DNA from: a virus
Length of the DNA: 64,000 nucleotides
Reading direction: 5' to 3' (one strand)
Virus record (IMG/VR): IMGVR_UViG_3300026382_000175
Location: 16,915-80,914 of that record
The notes beneath the pieces were generated by a model, which made no database searches, was not told where the DNA came from, and saw nothing but the letters and a program-made list of their open reading frames with translations. A program made the translations under genes and the position numbers. How positions within the stretch are numbered: the stretch's first letter is position 1; every line of letters starts with the position of its first letter. Shown piece after piece: positions 1,830 through 64,000 of the stretch.

Positions 1830-2264
1830 CTATCCCTCTACCTCAACTTCTACTTCGCACTCTCCATCTTCCATAGCACAAAGAACTGCATCTTCAGCAG
1901 TAGGATTGGACTTAAGTTGGAGTAGCTTAGCTATTGCATCTACTTTGTTAAGAGCTGAAAAGATAGGATTACCTTGCTCATCTACTAAATCAAAAGTAGG
2001 AGCATCTGAACCATTAAAAATAAGTTTAGCTTTTATAACTTTAGCTTCATTAGATTGTTCAGGCTCTTCTGTAGGTTGTTCTGGTTCTTGGTCATCTACC
2101 TTCCTAGTCATAGGAGTACCACACTTAGGACAATCATAATTAGAGCAAGGTATTCCCATAGGAGCTTCCATCTCATAACCACAGTTAGGACATACGCAAG
2201 TTTTAGTGGGGATTTCTATATCTAACTCCTCTAGTAGAGAAATTATTTCATGTATCTTTGCCAT
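1830..2264 (-). CDS. Zinc-ribbon protein (144 aa)
   Basis: The N-terminal helix is followed by a zinc ribbon with Cys pairs in CVCPNCGYE and YDCPKCGTPM (about residues 23-52). A Pro/Glu linker (about 58-72) leads to an acidic C-terminal domain of about 70 residues. The gene lies just past the terminator of the major capsid gene and 2 bp before the ferredoxin-like gene, so the two are probably made together. Function unknown. Confidence 0.7.
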   Translation of the reverse strand: MAKIHEIISLLEELDIEIPTKTCVCPNCGYEMEAPMGIPCSNYDCPKCGTPMTRKVDDQEPEQPTEEPEQSNEAKVIKAKLIFNGSDAPTFDLVDEQGNPIFSALNKVDAIAKLLQLKSNPTAEDAVLCAMEDGECEVEVEVEG

Positions 2265-2291
2265 ACCTTAACCTCCTTTATTACTGAAAAT

Positions 2292-2315
2292 GGGAGAGGG
2301 TTGGTACCCTCTCCC
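2292..2315 (-). terminator. Intrinsic terminator after the capsid gene
   Basis: Perfect 10-bp stem (GGGAGAGGGT with ACCCTCTCCC) and a 4-base loop, followed on the minus strand by ATTTTC. It lies 8 bp past the major capsid stop. It would cap the abundant capsid message and lower expression of the ferredoxin-like and following genes. Confidence 0.75.
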
Positions 2316-2323
2316 TATATCAA

Positions 2324-3706
2324 TTAAGCATTCTTAACTTCAAGCTTACCTACGAACTGAGGAACAATAACTTCTACTCCAGCCCATACAGCAACAGCCC
2401 TCTGGTTTGTTAGTGGGTTAGGAGAAAGTGGAATGAGGTCTGTTGTAGTAAGAGGCATATAAGGAGCATAAACTGCTGCACCTTCAAATGGGTTATCAGG
2501 ATTGTAAACTCCTAGTGCTACATTAGCAGGGAGTGCATTAGCATCGTTAACCCTGATAACAGTTACTCCATCAAGAGTACCGAATACATGAGCACCCATT
2601 GCCTTACCATCAGCAATCTTCTCAAATCCAGGGAGAGTTGAAAGAATGGATGCTACCTTAGCACCTGCTATGATAACATTAATAACTCCTCTACCTGCAT
2701 TCTGAACAATAGAACCTTCAAGATCTGCTAATGCATCCTTAGCTGTTTGCTTATGTTCAAAGTAGCTTACTCCATCTGGAGGAGTTTTATCCCAATTAAT
2801 AACTCCACCAGCAGGATTAGCATTCATCTTCCTGATAAGGTCGCCACCAATTTCATTATTAATAGCTACAACCAGGTCTTTAGCTAGTTCATCTTCAGCT
2901 ACAATTCCAAACCTTTGCCTGAGAGCATAGGATTGGAGAAGTCCTACTACTCCTTTAAGAGCATAAATCCTAGCTGTAACAGGTACAGATTCAAATACAG
3001 AACCAATGCTAGGTAGATCTGCTTGAGCTTCTACATCAAGCTGATATCCAACTACAATAGAAGTTCCACTAGCAGGAGCATCAGCAAAGTGGAGTTCTAC
3101 TGTACCAGTTTTGTAGTCAATAGAACCCCAAACTCCTACTCCAAGGATTACTCCATTACCATCATCCTTACCATAAACATTTCCAGCTTTAACTTGGAAA
3201 GTTTCAGGTCTTACAGGAACAGGTTCAATTGTTACTGTGAAGTCTTTAGTAGTACCATCTCCAGTAGCTACTTCTTTATCTGAGATTACATTAGAAGCAA
3301 GTCCACTAGGAAGAACTGCTCCAGTTCTAGGGTCAATAATAGTATCTCCTGTGTCTTGCCTCTTGATTACTTTGAAGTAAACATTTCCACGCTCTTCTTC
3401 AATGTTCTGTACACTAGCTATGAAAGGAATAACAGAGTTACCATAAGCTACTGTGATAACATCAAAAGCTACTTTGGGAAGAGCTCCTAGTGAGCTAAGT
3501 CCATCTTCCCTAACAGTAGCTTCAAGCATTTCCCACTTTTCAAGTTCTTTACCAAGCTGAACTACATCCCAAGCTTGAACTCCTTTAAGCTTACCAAGGA
3601 TAGTATGGGATTCAAGGGTTTCTACCTGCTCACGATACCTTTTAAAGTAGCTCTCTGCTTGTGCTTCTACTTCCCTAAGCTTCTTTTCAATAATGAGTTC
3701 GCTCAT
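2324..3706 (-). CDS. Major capsid protein (HK97 fold, T4 gp23-like)
   Basis: Forms the head shell. The 460-residue protein starts with a charged helix (about 1-45), likely the piece removed or refolded in maturation. Next comes the pattern seen in T4-like major heads: SLGALPKVAFDVITVAYGNS followed by VQNIEEERGNVYFKV. Residues about 148-225 form an inserted beta domain with DGTTKDFT...GSIDYKTGTVELHF, a small Ig-like insertion found in several large-phage capsids. The C-terminal half holds the A-domain strands. The gene follows the protease-scaffold gene, has a strong AGGAGG site, and is closed by a terminator, as expected for a highly made protein. Confidence 0.85.
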   Translation of the reverse strand: MSELIIEKKLREVEAQAESYFKRYREQVETLESHTILGKLKGVQAWDVVQLGKELEKWEMLEATVREDGLSSLGALPKVAFDVITVAYGNSVIPFIASVQNIEEERGNVYFKVIKRQDTGDTIIDPRTGAVLPSGLASNVISDKEVATGDGTTKDFTVTIEPVPVRPETFQVKAGNVYGKDDGNGVILGVGVWGSIDYKTGTVELHFADAPASGTSIVVGYQLDVEAQADLPSIGSVFESVPVTARIYALKGVVGLLQSYALRQRFGIVAEDELAKDLVVAINNEIGGDLIRKMNANPAGGVINWDKTPPDGVSYFEHKQTAKDALADLEGSIVQNAGRGVINVIIAGAKVASILSTLPGFEKIADGKAMGAHVFGTLDGVTVIRVNDANALPANVALGVYNPDNPFEGAAVYAPYMPLTTTDLIPLSPNPLTNQRAVAVWAGVEVIVPQFVGKLEVKNA

Positions 3707-3749
3707 ATTAATCCTCCTTTGCTTGTTTAATTTGGATTGAATTGGATTT

Positions 3750-3775
3750 AACTAACCTGATAGTGCAGGTTAGTT
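3750..3775 (-). terminator. Stop-codon hairpin between scaffold and capsid genes
   Basis: A perfect 10-bp stem (AACTAACCTG with CAGGTTAGTT) with a 6-base loop. It includes the TAA of the protease-scaffold gene. No U-run follows on the minus strand (AAATCC), so it is more likely a processing or partial attenuation site than a full terminator. It sits 43 bp before the capsid start. Confidence 0.45.
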
Positions 3776-4520
3776 ACTTGAGGAATGATTCAGCTATCCT
3801 TACTGTTCTGGGTTTAAGGAACTTGGGAGTATCTTCTTTGGTTTCGTCTACCTTAGATGAGGAAACTTTATACTTATTAACATACTTAGCTGATTCAGTC
3901 ATCCTAGAGAGAACTTCTTTAGCTTCCTCTACTCCTAACTTAGAAACTAACCTTTCTACAACTTCCTTGTCTGCTTTAAACTCTTTAGCTAGTTCCTCTA
4001 CTTGCTTATTGAGTTTTTCCTCCTTGAGCTTAAGGAGAACCTGCTCTATACCTTTAAGGAATTCTTCAACCTCTTCTAATGAACCTACCCTAGACTGGAA
4101 GTCTGCTAGTTTTTCTAGTGTGGATTTAGCTTTTTCTAAGGTTTCCTTAATTTCTTCAGGAGTACCTAACTCAAGGTACTTTTCAAGAGTTTCTTTAGAC
4201 TTGAGGAGAGACTCTTCAACTTCTTCAGGAGAACCTATTTTGAGGTAAGCTTTGAGGATTTCCTCAGACTCTTTTAGAGCCTCTTTAATCTCCTCAGGAG
4301 TACCTAGTACCTCATACTTAACAAGAGTTTCTTTGAGGGATTTGAGCTCCTCTTCTACCTTAGTGAGGCTCTCCTTTACAGATTTAGCTTCCTCTTGGTT
4401 CTTTTGGAGCCCTTCAAGTTGTCTTTTGAGTTCCTCATTTTCCTTAAGAACTTTGTCTAGCTCTTTTTCTAGTTCTACTTTCTCTTTAGTAAGTTGTTCA
4501 AGGACTTGTTCCATAGCCAT
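3774..4520 (-). CDS. Internal-start scaffold protein (248 aa), nested in frame
   Basis: Inside the protease-scaffold gene, AAGGAGGA lies 7 nt before an in-frame ATG at 4520-4518 (protein MAMEQVLEQLTKEK). This is one of the best ribosome-binding sites on the strand and falls exactly at the protease/scaffold boundary. The expected product is the coiled-coil scaffold without protease. Lambda C/Nu3 has the same logic. Inferred from the start signal only. Confidence 0.7.
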   Translation of the reverse strand: MAMEQVLEQLTKEKVELEKELDKVLKENEELKRQLEGLQKNQEEAKSVKESLTKVEEELKSLKETLVKYEVLGTPEEIKEALKESEEILKAYLKIGSPEEVEESLLKSKETLEKYLELGTPEEIKETLEKAKSTLEKLADFQSRVGSLEEVEEFLKGIEQVLLKLKEEKLNKQVEELAKEFKADKEVVERLVSKLGVEEAKEVLSRMTESAKYVNKYKVSSSKVDETKEDTPKFLKPRTVRIAESFLK

Positions 4521-7979: not shown

Positions 7980-9090
7980 TCAGCTTAAATTCCACTTATA
8001 ACCATAGTCTTGTTTAATTGGTTCTGGACAAGAACCAATGTAGTTAAGAAACTTAATAGTCTCATCTGGGTTTAATCTGATAACTGGATATTTCTCTTTT
8101 GAAATATGATACTTAACTTTAATACCTACTTCACTAAACTTCTCAATTAAGAACCCTACATCTTCAAGTAAAAAAAGAATTCGTATAAAGGTGAATATAA
8201 GGTCTTCTTTTCTTATTGTATCTCTTTATCAGACTCCCATCTCCAATATACCAATGTAAACAAACTATTGGAGTTAACTCCAAATCTTTTGGTACTATCT
8301 TTTTACCCTCTGGATACCATCTAAGATATTGCTCTGTTAGGCAAGGATAGGGTTTTGTTATAAAATGATAAGTAACACTGTTAAATCGCTTATGTTCTTT
8401 CCTATAAATTCTTGAACACTCCAAACCTTCATCAATAAACTGTTGTCTTAGCCATTCTATATAATTCTTGTGTTTATCTCCATGTTGATAATAAGCATTT
8501 CCTTTTACTCTCTTATCTTTTGTTAAACAACCATCCCCTAAAAGAAGACCATCCAACATTTGTTTAAATTCTTCTGATAAAGTAAGATTATAATTTTTAA
8601 CAGTTGAACAGGCTTCTTTCTTCTCTCTCCTTTCTATATTGTGTCTTATCAACCAAATTCTTATAGTCTCATCGTCAACGCCTAATTCCTTTGCAATCTG
8701 GCAAGAAGATTTCCTGTTTACTACATACTCCTGATATAACCGATCTTTATCCATATAAGGTTTAAATTCTTCTCTTGTCTTAAACCCAAACTTCTTAAAA
8801 TAAAAGTCCAACGATGGAGGAATAATACCACATTCCCTAGCTATCTGAGATTTAGACTTCTTTAGAACATAATACTGATAATAAAGCCAATCCTTATCCT
8901 TGTAATACTCCTTCTTATTAAGATTTTTCTTTACATTAGGTTCTCTTCTTGGAATGTCAAACCTGATTAACCAATTTCTTATTGTAGCAGGGTCAACTTT
9001 TAACTCTTTTGCTATCTGTCTGGTAGACTTGCCTAATTCCCAATATTGGTGATAAAGCCAATCTTTATCCTTATAAGGTTTGTTTACCAC
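7980..9090 (-). pseudogene. LAGLIDADG-like homing endonuclease, frameshifted
   Basis: Starts at a GTG (9090) with AGAGG 6 nt upstream. Three tandem helix-turn-helix repeats (about residues 5-50, 62-105, 113-157; pattern QIAKELGVDxxTIRxWLIR) precede two LAGLIDADG-type motifs, LDGLLLGDGCL and LHWYIGDGSL. The frame stops at 8164, but dropping one base from the 7-A run at 8170-8176 restores about 60 more residues (ending YGYKWN...), typical of this family, to a stop at 7980. So it is probably inactivated by a one-base insertion, unless the run is a sequencing error. It is free-standing, with no intron or intein around it. Confidence 0.85.
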
Positions 9091-12840: not shown

Positions 12841-14706
12841 TCAATCAAAATAGCTACCCCAAAACAGTTGAGTTAGAGTTTGGTTTTGTTGAGAGGTATT
12901 ACTTACTTCTGCTTTATGAATCCTTTGGAAAGCTAACTGTTTGATTAAATCTTTATTAGTTACTAAATTCCAATAAACTCCTACTACTGCATCAGCACCA
13001 TCTTTACTACCTTTAGTTCCATCAGGGAACTCTTGAGGGTGATCTATTTTCTTACCTATATCCTCTACATGTAATAACTCTTTAATCAGTAAGTCGTGTT
13101 TAGGTATCCAAACTCTTTCCTCATATATAGCGTCTCTGAAGGAGAGGTAAGGGTCTTTAGTTCTATCTACTGATAAGAGAGCTGTTTTATAACCCATCTG
13201 GGTTAACTGTTGCCTCATATCCTCAGACTGAAACCCATCAATAGTTACCATTGCTATTGGGTAACCTAATCTAGAAAGGTCTACTATGAATTGTCTTATC
13301 TTGTAAAATGGAATTCTCTCCCCTGGTAGAGGTTCTAAATAAGCTACGAAATCTATAACTACTTCTGGTTCAGAAAAAGAGTGTTTTTCTAAAGTTAGTG
13401 GGTCAACTCTTTCTATTGTTTTGTAGCCTTTTATGTAACCTGAAGCTATACCTGTCCTATCTCCTGTTATGGAAAGGTCTATATGAATAACTCTAGGGCA
13501 CTCTTTAAAGAGTGGGTTCTTTAGGTAGTTTATGTTGAAGTAGTTAATTAAGACATCTGATTTGTCGTTAAAGGATAATCTAATTATCTGTTGGTTAACA
13601 GGGTTAGTAACTGAAGCTTGTTTTATGAGTATGTTTTTAGTTTTGAATATCCTATGGGTTGAACCTACTGAATAACCAGCTAAGTCTCTTATGGCATTGT
13701 GTAAGTCTAACTCAAATTTATCCTTTAGCTCTATTGGAACTTCTATTACCTTAGTTTCATCTATGTATTGCAGTTGGGACTCATCTTCTATTATGAATGG
13801 ATCAGTAGTTTCATCTCCTATGAAAACCTTAAAGGTTTCACCTGAATAAATACCTAGATGTTTCTTAACTTCCCATATAGGGTATTGGAAGATTATTACT
13901 CCTTGCTTACCTCTTACCTTTTCTGCATGCTGGGAAACGAAATCAGTAGGAGATTTCTCAGAAGACACTAAGCAAAGATGTCCTGGAAGTTTGCCACCAG
14001 CTTGAGCAAACCTAGATTCCATTCTTCTAAGGAGTGCATTGTAAGACTCTTGAGCTTGGTTAGATATTACATCAAAGTTAGCTTCATCAAGTATTCCTCC
14101 AAATACAGCCATACCAAGAGTGTGGGTAAACCTAGAACCTGCTACTATACCTATGTTATTAACAAATCTGATTTCAGATGTTTTCCTATTCTCAGCATCT
14201 AAATGTTCTTGGAAGAACTCTGAGTTAGCTATTAGGTTCTTAAATGGTTCATATAAAACCTGATCAGCCAATCCTAGTGTAGCGTTGAAGAGAGCTATTA
14301 CTATCCTATCAGTAGGAATTAAGTTAAACTTTTTATGAGGATTTTCCAATAGGAGAAGTTTATAAAGATCATAAAGTGTTATAACCCTTGCTATTGAACT
14401 CTTGCCAACCCCTATCGCACCTCGCAAGATGCACTCATAATAAGGAGAGTAGAATGGGTTAGGAAAGATTGTTTTTAGAGCTTCTTTCCATAATGGGTAT
14501 ATCTTACCTCCTAAAGAAAGGCCTAAATACTTAGGATGTTCTATAAAGGTTATTATGTCTACTGGAACTTCTTTATAGCCCTCTAATTCAGCATATAGTT
14601 GGAATAAAGATTGAGGGTCATTTTGGAACTTCTCTATTAGCTTCTTTAGTATAGACCTCTCTTTAGGAGGTAAGGTTTTTAGTTTATTGATTAGTTGGTT
14701 TAGCAT
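12841..14706 (-). CDS. terL: Terminase large subunit
   Basis: Packaging motor ATPase plus nuclease. Walker A is RGAIGVGKSS (residues 95-104) and Walker B is GGILDEANF (about 203-211), with a coupling segment LCLVSSEKSP. The nuclease domain shows the three acidic sites of the RNase H-like fold: IHIDLSITGDRTG, VTIDGFQSEDM and KDGADAVVGVYWN. At 621 residues it is the usual size. An unusual structured RNA lies 30 bp upstream in its leader, and a short hairpin (14713-14725) covers its weak AGAG ribosome-binding site. Confidence 0.9.
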   Translation of the reverse strand: MLNQLINKLKTLPPKERSILKKLIEKFQNDPQSLFQLYAELEGYKEVPVDIITFIEHPKYLGLSLGGKIYPLWKEALKTIFPNPFYSPYYECILRGAIGVGKSSIARVITLYDLYKLLLLENPHKKFNLIPTDRIVIALFNATLGLADQVLYEPFKNLIANSEFFQEHLDAENRKTSEIRFVNNIGIVAGSRFTHTLGMAVFGGILDEANFDVISNQAQESYNALLRRMESRFAQAGGKLPGHLCLVSSEKSPTDFVSQHAEKVRGKQGVIIFQYPIWEVKKHLGIYSGETFKVFIGDETTDPFIIEDESQLQYIDETKVIEVPIELKDKFELDLHNAIRDLAGYSVGSTHRIFKTKNILIKQASVTNPVNQQIIRLSFNDKSDVLINYFNINYLKNPLFKECPRVIHIDLSITGDRTGIASGYIKGYKTIERVDPLTLEKHSFSEPEVVIDFVAYLEPLPGERIPFYKIRQFIVDLSRLGYPIAMVTIDGFQSEDMRQQLTQMGYKTALLSVDRTKDPYLSFRDAIYEERVWIPKHDLLIKELLHVEDIGKKIDHPQEFPDGTKGSKDGADAVVGVYWNLVTNKDLIKQLAFQRIHKAEVSNTSQQNQTLTQLFWGSYFD

Positions 14707-14736: not shown

Positions 14737-14812
14737 GCAAGGTAGGAGAAGGGAGGACTGGGACTCCCTTTACCTGAGTGGCCAACTCAGGCTCTCCTAC
14801 CCTGCCCCAGTC
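14737..14812 (-). ncRNA. Pseudoknotted three-way-junction RNA element before terL
   Basis: The gap between two packaging genes folds almost completely. P1: 14741-14749 with 14793-14801 (9 bp, extended by 3 bp past one mismatch). P2: 14750-14755 with 14764-14769 (6 bp). P3: 14773-14779 with 14785-14791 (7 bp). The P2 loop GACTGGG (14756-14762) is also perfectly complementary to CCCAGTC (14806-14812) just outside P1, giving a 7-bp pseudoknot. The pairs hold on either strand, but the flanking genes are minus-strand. It is not a tRNA: only two inner arms are present and there is no T-arm. It matches no class I know. It could be a terL leader switch, a separate RNA, or a pac-type DNA signal. Confidence 0.7.
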
Positions 14813-14855: not shown

Positions 14856-15335
14856 CTATACTTCTAGATGTTCTACTACTGAACTTAGTATTTCCTTTAG
14901 GGTATTTCTGGTTTCTTGATTTATCTCTAGTTGCTCTAGTATAGAAGAGTCTTCTTCAGTTTCTACTACTCTTAACTCTACTGATTGAGATAACTTAGAA
15001 AGTTCTTTTAGGATTGGTACTAAGGACTTAAGGTTATTGAATACTGAGTTATAAGCTTGAACTAATCCATTATAGAACTCTACCTGTTCTATGAAGTTAG
15101 AGAAGTTAGCGTTAGAAAGTAATTCGTCTTCTAGGGTTTCAAGTTTCTCTCCTAGTTTTATCAGACGAGACATGTACTTTTTTATCATTAACCTTGTAAA
15201 AGAAGCTACTTCTAACTTTAGGGAATCTAAGTCTGGGTCTAGTTTGAAATCCTTGGAATTACCTTCTAGGTAGTCTCTTAGAGAGGTTAGTTGTTTATCT
15301 AGTTCTGATTGAACCTTTATGTTAGGCTTTTTCAT
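14856..15335 (-). CDS. Terminase small subunit candidate (159 aa)
   Basis: Helical, coiled-coil-prone protein (MSRLIKLGEKLETLEDELL; FIEQVEFYNGLVQAYNSVF). It lies directly upstream of terL and has the size of T4-like small terminases (gp16 is about 160 residues). No sequence motif proves it; the call rests on position, size and helical content. A terminator-like hairpin precedes it. Confidence 0.4.
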   Translation of the reverse strand: MKKPNIKVQSELDKQLTSLRDYLEGNSKDFKLDPDLDSLKLEVASFTRLMIKKYMSRLIKLGEKLETLEDELLSNANFSNFIEQVEFYNGLVQAYNSVFNNLKSLVPILKELSKLSQSVELRVVETEEDSSILEQLEINQETRNTLKEILSSVVEHLEV

Positions 15336-15360
15336 TAGCTACCTCTTTAAGGTTAAAGAA

Positions 15361-15387
15361 AGGGTAGAGGGTTATTTCCTCTACCCT
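15361..15387 (-). terminator. Intrinsic terminator upstream of the packaging genes
   Basis: Perfect 10-bp stem (AGGGTAGAGG with CCTCTACCCT), 7-base loop, followed on the minus strand by TTCTTT. It separates the nucleotide-metabolism genes from the packaging and head genes. I see no clear promoter between it and the TerS candidate, so partial read-through or a regulated anti-termination step is likely. Confidence 0.65.
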
Positions 15388-15396
15388 TTAACTCTC

Positions 15397-15494
15397 CTGG
15401 TCAGGGAGGAGAGATGAGGGGGAAGGAGGTCAGAATGGAATACAAAGTAAAGAGAATAGTTCAAGAAGGGAGAGTATTATTTAGCCTTAGCTAA
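15397..15494 (+). pseudogene. Chimeric relic of two replication-gene starts (26-codon ORF)
   Basis: A plus-strand fragment in a minus-strand region. 15397-15418 is identical for 22 bp to 44710-44731, the ribosome-binding site and ATG of the sigma-like gene. Then GGAGGT and ATG (15435) begin MEYKVKRIVQ, which matches the primase start MEYRVERIVQ (25464) at 8 of 10 residues. The frame from ATG 15414 runs through both to a TAA at 15494. This looks like a fused scrap of two gene starts, or a tiny decoy peptide. No promoter seen. Confidence 0.6.
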
Positions 15495-23301: not shown

Positions 23302-23311
23302 TTGGTAGTAA

Positions 23312-44690: not shown

Positions 44691-44726
44691 TATAGATAAG
44701 GAAACAAAACTGGTCAGGGAGGAGAG

Positions 44727-45377
44727 ATGAGAAAGGTAGAAAGGTTTGAAAACTCAGAGTTAAACTCACTCCAAGCAATTATCTACAAATTCTTACAGAG
44801 GAAACCTGAAAACTTAGACTTTGATGAACTTTATCAGGAACTTTTCCTTAAAGGGTTAGAGTTATTAAAAGACCCAAAAGTTCAAACTCTTAATGAGACT
44901 GAGAAGTGGAAGTATATCAAAACTGCTTTACATAACCACATAAAAGACCTTTTAAATGCTCAACCTAAAGAAGTACCTCTTTCAGAAGTAGTAGAACCTG
45001 AAAGTCAACTTTCCTTTATAGAACAAGTATTATCGCCCTATACTAATGTTAGCAAGTCTCCAATTCCAGTGGTTAAATTTATTAATCCAGAAACCTATGC
45101 TATTGGTAAGGAATTGATTGATAAAATAATGGCTTGGGCTGAAACTCAAGATGAAGGGACAAGAATTTTCTTTGAAGAGTATTTTAATCCAAGTCCTGAA
45201 GTGTTAGAGTATATGGAAAAACAAACTAATAAGGGAACTTGGAAAAATAGGAAGTTTGAACCTCTATTCTTAGCAAAGGTGTTAACTGAAATAGGTAAGT
45301 GGAAGTATAAAGATGGTAGAGATAAGTGGTTGAAAATAAAAAGAAAAATGATTAGGGATTTAGGGTTGGCTTTTTAG
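44727..45377 (+). CDS. Sigma-factor-like protein (216 aa)
   Basis: FDELYQELFLKGLELLKD followed by KYIKTALHNHIKDLLNAQ resembles sigma region 2 (core-binding and -10-melting helices) of ECF-type factors. The C-terminal part is helical and basic but has no clear region 4. It stands alone: host-type promoter before it and intrinsic terminator at its stop, unlike the long operons around it. It is the best candidate for the factor that reads the ten phage promoters. Moderate confidence by eye. Confidence 0.55.
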   Translation: MRKVERFENSELNSLQAIIYKFLQRKPENLDFDELYQELFLKGLELLKDPKVQTLNETEKWKYIKTALHNHIKDLLNAQPKEVPLSEVVEPESQLSFIEQVLSPYTNVSKSPIPVVKFINPETYAIGKELIDKIMAWAETQDEGTRIFFEEYFNPSPEVLEYMEKQTNKGTWKNRKFEPLFLAKVLTEIGKWKYKDGRDKWLKIKRKMIRDLGLAF

Positions 45378-60193: not shown

Positions 60194-60212
60194 TGTATCC
60201 TCCTTATTAAAA

Positions 60213-60339
60213 TAAATAAAGGACTGGAGAATTACTCTCCAGTCCACAAGTCAATTTTGAAGTTATTTACATAAGTATCTTCAATACCTTCAAGTTTGAT
60301 TCTCAACGCTCTACCTTTCTTATTAACAGCTTGGTATCT
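60213..60339. repeat. 127-bp perfect direct repeat, left copy
   Basis: Identical to 63874-64000 over the full visible 127 bp and may go on past the window. Covers the terminator and the last 35 codons of the long fibre gene. Confidence 0.95.
60221..60245 (-). terminator. Terminator formed by the end of the long fibre gene
   Basis: 10-bp perfect stem GGACTGGAGA with TCTCCAGTCC, 5-base loop, followed on the minus strand by TTTATTTATTTT. The TAA stop (60234-60232) is in the loop; the last codons (W-T-G-E) form the stem. Confidence 0.88.
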
Positions 60340-63852: not shown

Positions 63853-63881
63853 ATACTCCTCCATTAATTAGTGTAAATAAA

Positions 63882-63906
63882 GGACTGGAGAATTACTCTC
63901 CAGTCC
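63882..63906 (-). terminator. Terminator at the end of the upstream fibre gene
   Basis: Second copy of the hairpin at 60221, followed by TTTATTTAC on the minus strand. It precedes the long fibre gene by 30 bp, so that gene depends on read-through or a start signal not seen here. Confidence 0.8.
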
Positions 63907-64000
63907 ACAAGTCAATTTTGAAGTTATTTACATAAGTATCTTCAATACCTTCAAGTTTGATTCTCAACGCTCTACCTTTCTTATTAACAGCTTGGTATCT
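63893..64000 (-). CDS. C-terminus of another fibre gene (partial)
   Basis: The last 35 codons are identical to those of the 1206-aa fibre. The rest is outside the window. Shows at least two fibre genes in series with a shared end. Confidence 0.85.
   Translation of the reverse strand, partial: RYQAVNKKGRALRIKLEGIEDTYVNNFKIDLWTGE

Follow-up and report, generated by a model that had tools for sequence, protein, structure and literature searches.

A pseudoknotted three-way-junction RNA element between the presumed small- and large-terminase genes of a phage, and its possible role in the terS-terL mRNA

The mRNA of T4 gene 32 carries a pseudoknot near its start codon, which has been proposed to be a protein operator. 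Sampling of structured RNAs in phages is poor, and to our knowledge pseudoknotted folds in a packaging operon are undescribed outside the phi29-like phages. The packaging RNA (pRNA) of phi29-type phages has a three-way junction, and its molecules are joined through complementary CE and D loops (PMC6765105). In the exonuclease-resistant RNAs (xrRNAs) of flaviviruses, loop L3 pairs with sequence located downstream (PMC5760640), in pseudoknots of 2-7 bp (PMC8571300). When the genes of one operon decay at different rates, the usual cause is a stable structure between the cistrons that has no U-tract (malE-malF, papBA); such structures guard the upstream gene against 3'-5' exonucleases or, once an endonuclease has cut, the downstream one, as described for malE, for papBA and genome-wide (PMC5927463).

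The element reported here occupies positions 14737..14812 on the minus strand of the window, the term used below for the whole 64,000-nucleotide stretch of DNA that was analysed. Like the protective structures of malE-malF, puf and papBA it is stable, lies between co-directional genes, has no U-tract and is so placed that it could influence the relative amounts of the two mRNAs (PMC5927463); those structures are hairpins, however, whereas the phage element, known here from its sequence, is a pseudoknotted three-way junction. With phi29-type pRNA it has in common the three-way junction, the setting among phage packaging genes and a potential for loop pairing. It differs in that there is no complementarity between its two hairpin loops, UGGCC and UCCCAGUC, the second of which pairs instead with the 5' flank; in that it has no match to the Rfam Phage_pRNA covariance model, either at the gathering threshold or at E<=5; and in that it does not accompany the motor genes as a pRNA would, being absent from contig G002 and from the other terminase-family records searched. 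The flaviviral xrRNAs resemble it in having a three-way junction closed into a loop by the pairing of a hairpin loop with a flank of P1, over a comparable length. Their sequence is unrelated, the partner of the phage loop lies upstream of P1 (GACUGGG, 14812-14806) rather than downstream, the arrangement by which an xrRNA sets a ring around its 5' end, and the phage presumably grows in a bacterium that has no Xrn1. A position close to the start codon of a phage mRNA is shared with the T4 gene 32 pseudoknot, which has a different fold.

All genes around the element lie on the minus strand, and the RNA reads 14812→14737, within a 149-nt gap between two co-directional genes. The downstream gene, terL (12841..14706, minus strand, 621 aa), was recognized by the match of its product to the large terminase family PHROG 9 (E = 1e-6) and by its 40% identity to annotated phage TerL proteins. 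The upstream gene (14856..15335, minus strand, 159 aa) is presumed, by synteny and weak similarity, to encode the small terminase. Most of the annotated relatives examined have, ahead of terL, a gene of ~155-170 aa, and the protein, for which no direct family match was found, is 25% identical to its counterpart in Acinetobacter phage Ab1-TPeters, which itself gives a weak match to a PHROG small terminase (E = 0.006). A LAGLIDADG/HNH-type homing endonuclease gene (window 8164-9090, minus strand; PHROG matches down to 4e-32) is located near the portal-side genes.

An earlier note on this DNA had described a pseudoknotted three-way-junction RNA beside terL, and the pairing was confirmed at 14737-14812, although it had been folded on the plus strand and the sense RNA, like the genes, is on the minus strand. 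On the coding strand the 76-nt element runs GACUGGG-GCAGGGUAGGAGA-G-P2-UAA-AGGGAG U CCCAGUC CUCCCU-UCUCCUACCUUGC. The strands of P1, GCAGGGUAGGAGA (14793..14805) and UCUCCUACCUUGC (14737..14749), form 13 uninterrupted pairs that include one G.U; this position is a C.A mismatch on the plus strand, and the stem that had been read as nine pairs plus three thus keeps its pairs and loses its gap. P2 is the hairpin CCUGAGU-UGGCC-ACUCAGG (14773..14791), the loop region of which contains the self-complementary UGGCCA in all three known sequences. In the P3 hairpin, AGGGAG-UCCCAGUC-CUCCCU (14750..14769), the loop holds CCCAGUC (14756..14762), which makes seven Watson-Crick pairs with GACUGGG (14806..14812) immediately 5' of P1; the predicted energy of this duplex is -11.3 kcal/mol. 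The 7-bp loop-flank pseudoknot had been seen before, but on the sense strand its flanking partner is 5' of P1 and its loop is that of the second hairpin, not of the first. Nested stems and pseudoknot together amount to 33 pairs and engage nearly all nucleotides. The 3' strand of P1 ends 30 nt before the terL ATG, and this spacer lies outside the predicted fold.

The structure at 14737-14812 is real, and the previous judgement that it is unlikely by chance was borne out by several tests. The 149-nt gap has a predicted folding energy of -50.2 kcal/mol (z = -5.3), which was matched by none of 200 shuffles and by none of 4000 dinucleotide shuffles. A three-way junction with a 7-bp loop-flank pseudoknot was likewise never encountered in 4000 dinucleotide shuffles, and one with 6 bp arose in five of them. 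In a 100-nt sliding scan of both strands no other place in the 64-kb window was as stable as the element, and when four related phage contigs (~313 kb, both strands) were scanned for the same topology, matches elsewhere were seen only at much weaker energies. The GC content of the element is 61%, as opposed to 34% for the genome, as the earlier note had remarked; in AT-rich genomes, an intergenic stretch rich in GC is an accepted sign of a structured RNA (PMC6429828). At 70 C the secondary structure alone is still predicted to hold -20 kcal/mol. Amino-acid composition, through the IVYWREL index, predicts growth at ~64-68 C for these phages and at ~35-41 C for relatives that infect E. coli and Acinetobacter; such a host would be consistent with a GC-rich stem in a genome of 34% GC. 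At ~40% identity to Aquificota enzymes, the ribonucleotide reductase (RNR) gives no more than a hint of the host.

Three related IMG/VR contigs, L001, L002 and L004, cover the terS-terL junction. The element is present in L001 (TerL 98% identical) and in L004 (TerL 93%), which with the window makes three known copies, all from close relatives. L001 departs from the window at 8% of positions over the 2 kb around the element; within the element there is a single substitution, which turns a G.U of P1 into A-U, and one insertion at the junction. In L004 the sequence from terS to the element is rearranged and the element itself is kept. Across the three phages the P1 pair 15-78 is G.U, A-U and, in L004, G-C; in the latter the top pair of P3 also changes from G-C to U.G. 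With the gap in the L004 loop set at alignment column 62 (MAFFT placed it at 61), an A-U pair of the pseudoknot becomes G-C, the loop is one base shorter and 6 bp are kept; on the same reading, random placement of the L004 changes gave two compensated pairs with at least 31 of the 33 pairs kept at p = 0.0017, and retention of pairs alone at p = 0.06. The search for compensatory changes in related contigs, suggested earlier, thus yielded them in P1, P3 and the pseudoknot. A shuffle control on the three aligned sequences scored 105 of 500, three sequences being too weak a set to show covariation. We consider the pseudoknot to be well supported, if short of proof.

The third contig that covers the junction, L002 (G002; TerL 85% identical), has no element there, the TerS stop nearly abutting the TerL start, and the covariance model found no match anywhere in G002, an incomplete contig of 58.8 kb whose missing part could carry the RNA. 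Among terminase-family loci with a readable junction (TerL identity 44-28%), the upstream gene abuts or overlaps terL in most, and the few longer apparent terS-terL gaps stem from automatic start and ORF calling. Run over 40 whole phage records, the covariance model (nested stems) returned exactly three copies, with E < 1e-25, and exact-pattern scans of 2.9 million IMG/VR viral contigs with pieces of P1-P2, P2 and P1' gave real copies in L001 and L004 only; the remaining pattern matches share 16 nt by chance. Two covariance-model matches in Thermus phage phiLo (E of 1.8 and 3.3) and two in 136 Aquificota genomes were at chance level. By BLAST the gap had no match in phage DNA and, among plasmids, one chance match of 27 nt in a transposase. 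Rfam gave no match at the gathering threshold and, for a 351-nt region searched at E<=5, nothing above threshold; the traJ-II RNA (RF01760) reached 22.6 bits against a threshold of 40 (E = 0.054). Because the element is absent from L002, because the junctions of the wider family mostly abut and because no other copies were found, it is most simply read as a lineage-specific structured RNA, gained in one lineage. A pair of phages with and without the RNA at 85% TerL identity offers a natural control for a role in packaging or in terS:terL dosage.

These distributions bear on the two packaging roles that the earlier note had considered, a packaging RNA and a pac-like DNA signal. Since a motor with an 85%-identical TerL works without an RNA between the genes, an essential motor RNA or an obligatory pac site appears unlikely. 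A trans-acting RNA, whether for packaging or as another stable phage RNA, could be excised from the terS-terL transcript or transcribed within it, and its UGGCCA could permit dimers; the element is very stable, has a three-way junction and sits in the packaging operon, and all three phages retain the UGGCCA loop, which could pair between molecules as a 6-bp loop-loop duplex of -9.5 kcal/mol. We nevertheless regard this as quite unlikely, given its absence from between the genes of G002 and from the 58.8 kb of that incomplete contig, the lack of a further copy in the 40 terminase-family and related records, the lack of a convincing promoter or terminator around the element, and the two hairpin loops, which unlike those of phi29 pRNA do not complement each other. 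The other role would be that of a DNA signal (pac or cos, or a site of replication or recombination) that works in cruciform or single-stranded form. The nested inverted repeats do adjoin the terminase genes, and terS or its neighbourhood is a frequent location of pac sites. Against it, the pseudoknot, a structure that only a single strand can make, has been kept under selection through compensating changes, and a protein that recognises duplex DNA would have no need of them; the mismatches are G.U on the coding strand, a weak argument; the L001 and L004 contigs extend for tens of kb on both sides, so there is no genome end here; and L002 does without the element. Such a signal seems to us decidedly improbable.

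The position upstream of terL resembles a 5'-UTR, and pseudoknotted three-way junctions are found in several riboswitches. A metabolite riboswitch or a ribozyme is nonetheless very improbable, since almost no conserved nucleotide is left unpaired for a binding or active site, as far as three such close sequences can reveal conservation of single bases, no expression platform is visible, and Rfam offered nothing even at E<=5 save the sub-threshold traJ-II. Alternatively, a phage protein (TerL, TerS or a late regulator) would bind the folded RNA as a translational operator or leader and control terL translation, in the manner of the T4 gene 32 pseudoknot. The element is placed immediately before terL, whose ribosome-binding site, AAAGAG, looks weak next to the GAGGT-type one in L002, the relative that has no RNA; and a compact fold with few free nucleotides would suit recognition of shape by a protein. 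On the other hand, the start site is not visibly sequestered, the 30-nt spacer being outside the fold, and no second copy of the motif was found elsewhere in the phage as a binding target. A protein-bound terL leader is a possibility of some weight, albeit an unlikely one, and the main rival to the reading that follows.

No intrinsic terminator or U-tract was found at the element, and no convincing promoter or terminator brackets it. No sequestration of a ribosome-binding site is visible in the terL leader, so a classical switch there, as once proposed, is no more than a possibility. The ~30 nt before the terL ATG would probably allow a ribosome to load without melting the element. As an antisense RNA against its own phage the element was rejected: trans-pairing of at least 12 nt is absent beyond its own arms, apart from one 13-nt match in G001. 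With a motor RNA and a pac site unlikely, no genome end, no antisense pairing, no U-tract and an uncovered terL start, a structural element that acts on the mRNA is favoured.

One possible explanation for the location of the element, inserted between two genes that abut in relatives, is that it acts in cis to uncouple the expression of terS and terL through mRNA decay or processing. By analogy with known operons we favour this reading, tentatively, and would give it somewhat less than an even chance. The element would be co-transcribed within the terS-terL mRNA of a thermophilic phage lineage, its compact pseudoknotted three-way junction separating the two cistrons as a structural barrier. Once an endonuclease had cut in the AU-rich flank, the element would shield one cistron from exonucleases, either terS at its 3' end or terL at its 5' end, and it would break translational coupling between the genes. 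TerS and TerL would in this way be made in unequal amounts from one transcript, a difference in dosage that might benefit the phage. Against a decay barrier it may be said that a plain hairpin is enough for most such structures, and that the pseudoknot suggests binding of a protein or ligand, or a mechanical block.

The last of these can be pictured from the geometry. P1 has 13 pairs, P3 and the pseudoknot stacked on each other have about 13-14 and share a continuous 3' strand, and the pseudoknot strand meets P1 without a linker. With no linker and a continuous 3' strand, P3 and the pseudoknot could form only by folding alongside P1, which would set the helices side by side, tied at both ends. 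An additional scenario is a phage analogue of the exonuclease-resistant RNAs, of mirrored topology, in which the closed ring would mechanically block a ribonuclease and so set a stable end of the terL mRNA, or free a stable small RNA, in a thermophile. We hold this to be rather unlikely; if true, it would mean that a nuclease-blocking RNA shape arose independently.

Several further observations were made in these contigs. Upstream of terS, a putative antisense RNA (window 15336-15440, minus strand) ends in a strong hairpin followed by TTTCTTT. In the window, 22 nt of it are perfectly complementary to 44710-44731 (plus strand), where the gene at 44727..45377 has its ribosome-binding site and ATG. 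The orthologous RNA of G001 matches the start of a 236-aa gene over 15 nt exactly (~21 with one G.U), an extra A in the target being met by an extra U in the RNA, a covarying base; that of G002 matches the starts of a primase-like gene over 19 nt, a DnaB-type helicase gene over 15 nt and a small gene over 13 nt. Taken singly, matches of 14-16 nt are frequent in the background, but in three phages the best or nearly best match lies at the same orthologous site; L004 has no such matches. One possibility is a late RNA by which early genes are turned off; alternatively, the plus strand could carry a decayed copy of one or more gene starts. The terminator-like hairpin in this region (window 15357-15395, minus strand) keeps its position in the window, L001, L002 and L004, whereas its stem sequence is wholly changed among the phages (GGGTAGAGG, GAGGCGGG, GGGAGGCTAA).

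What looks like an intein with an atypical split interrupts the Walker A motif of TerL in L004 (IMGVR_UViG_3300026488_000001, ~2260-4001); its N-part has 32 residues (CLGNQQLIEVYMNEEDIKKYGLEEFIIEESNE), its C-part ends in HHN|T, and a free endonuclease-like ORF lies between the halves. It resembles AceL-TerL and GOS-TerL, and would be a thermophilic relative of AceL-TerL. A 39-nt repeat (AACCTGAAATTCTAATCCA...GTTTAGTTTAGTAGA) occurs in eight copies between window positions 23310 and 49301, in or near intergenic regions of the block of plus-strand genes; these are possibly phage promoters or operators. Finally, a 134-nt direct repeat (98% identity; window 60206-60339 and 63867-64000) flanks a 1210-aa gene; its second copy makes up the last 134 bases of the contig, and the repeat may reflect a duplication or an assembly effect.
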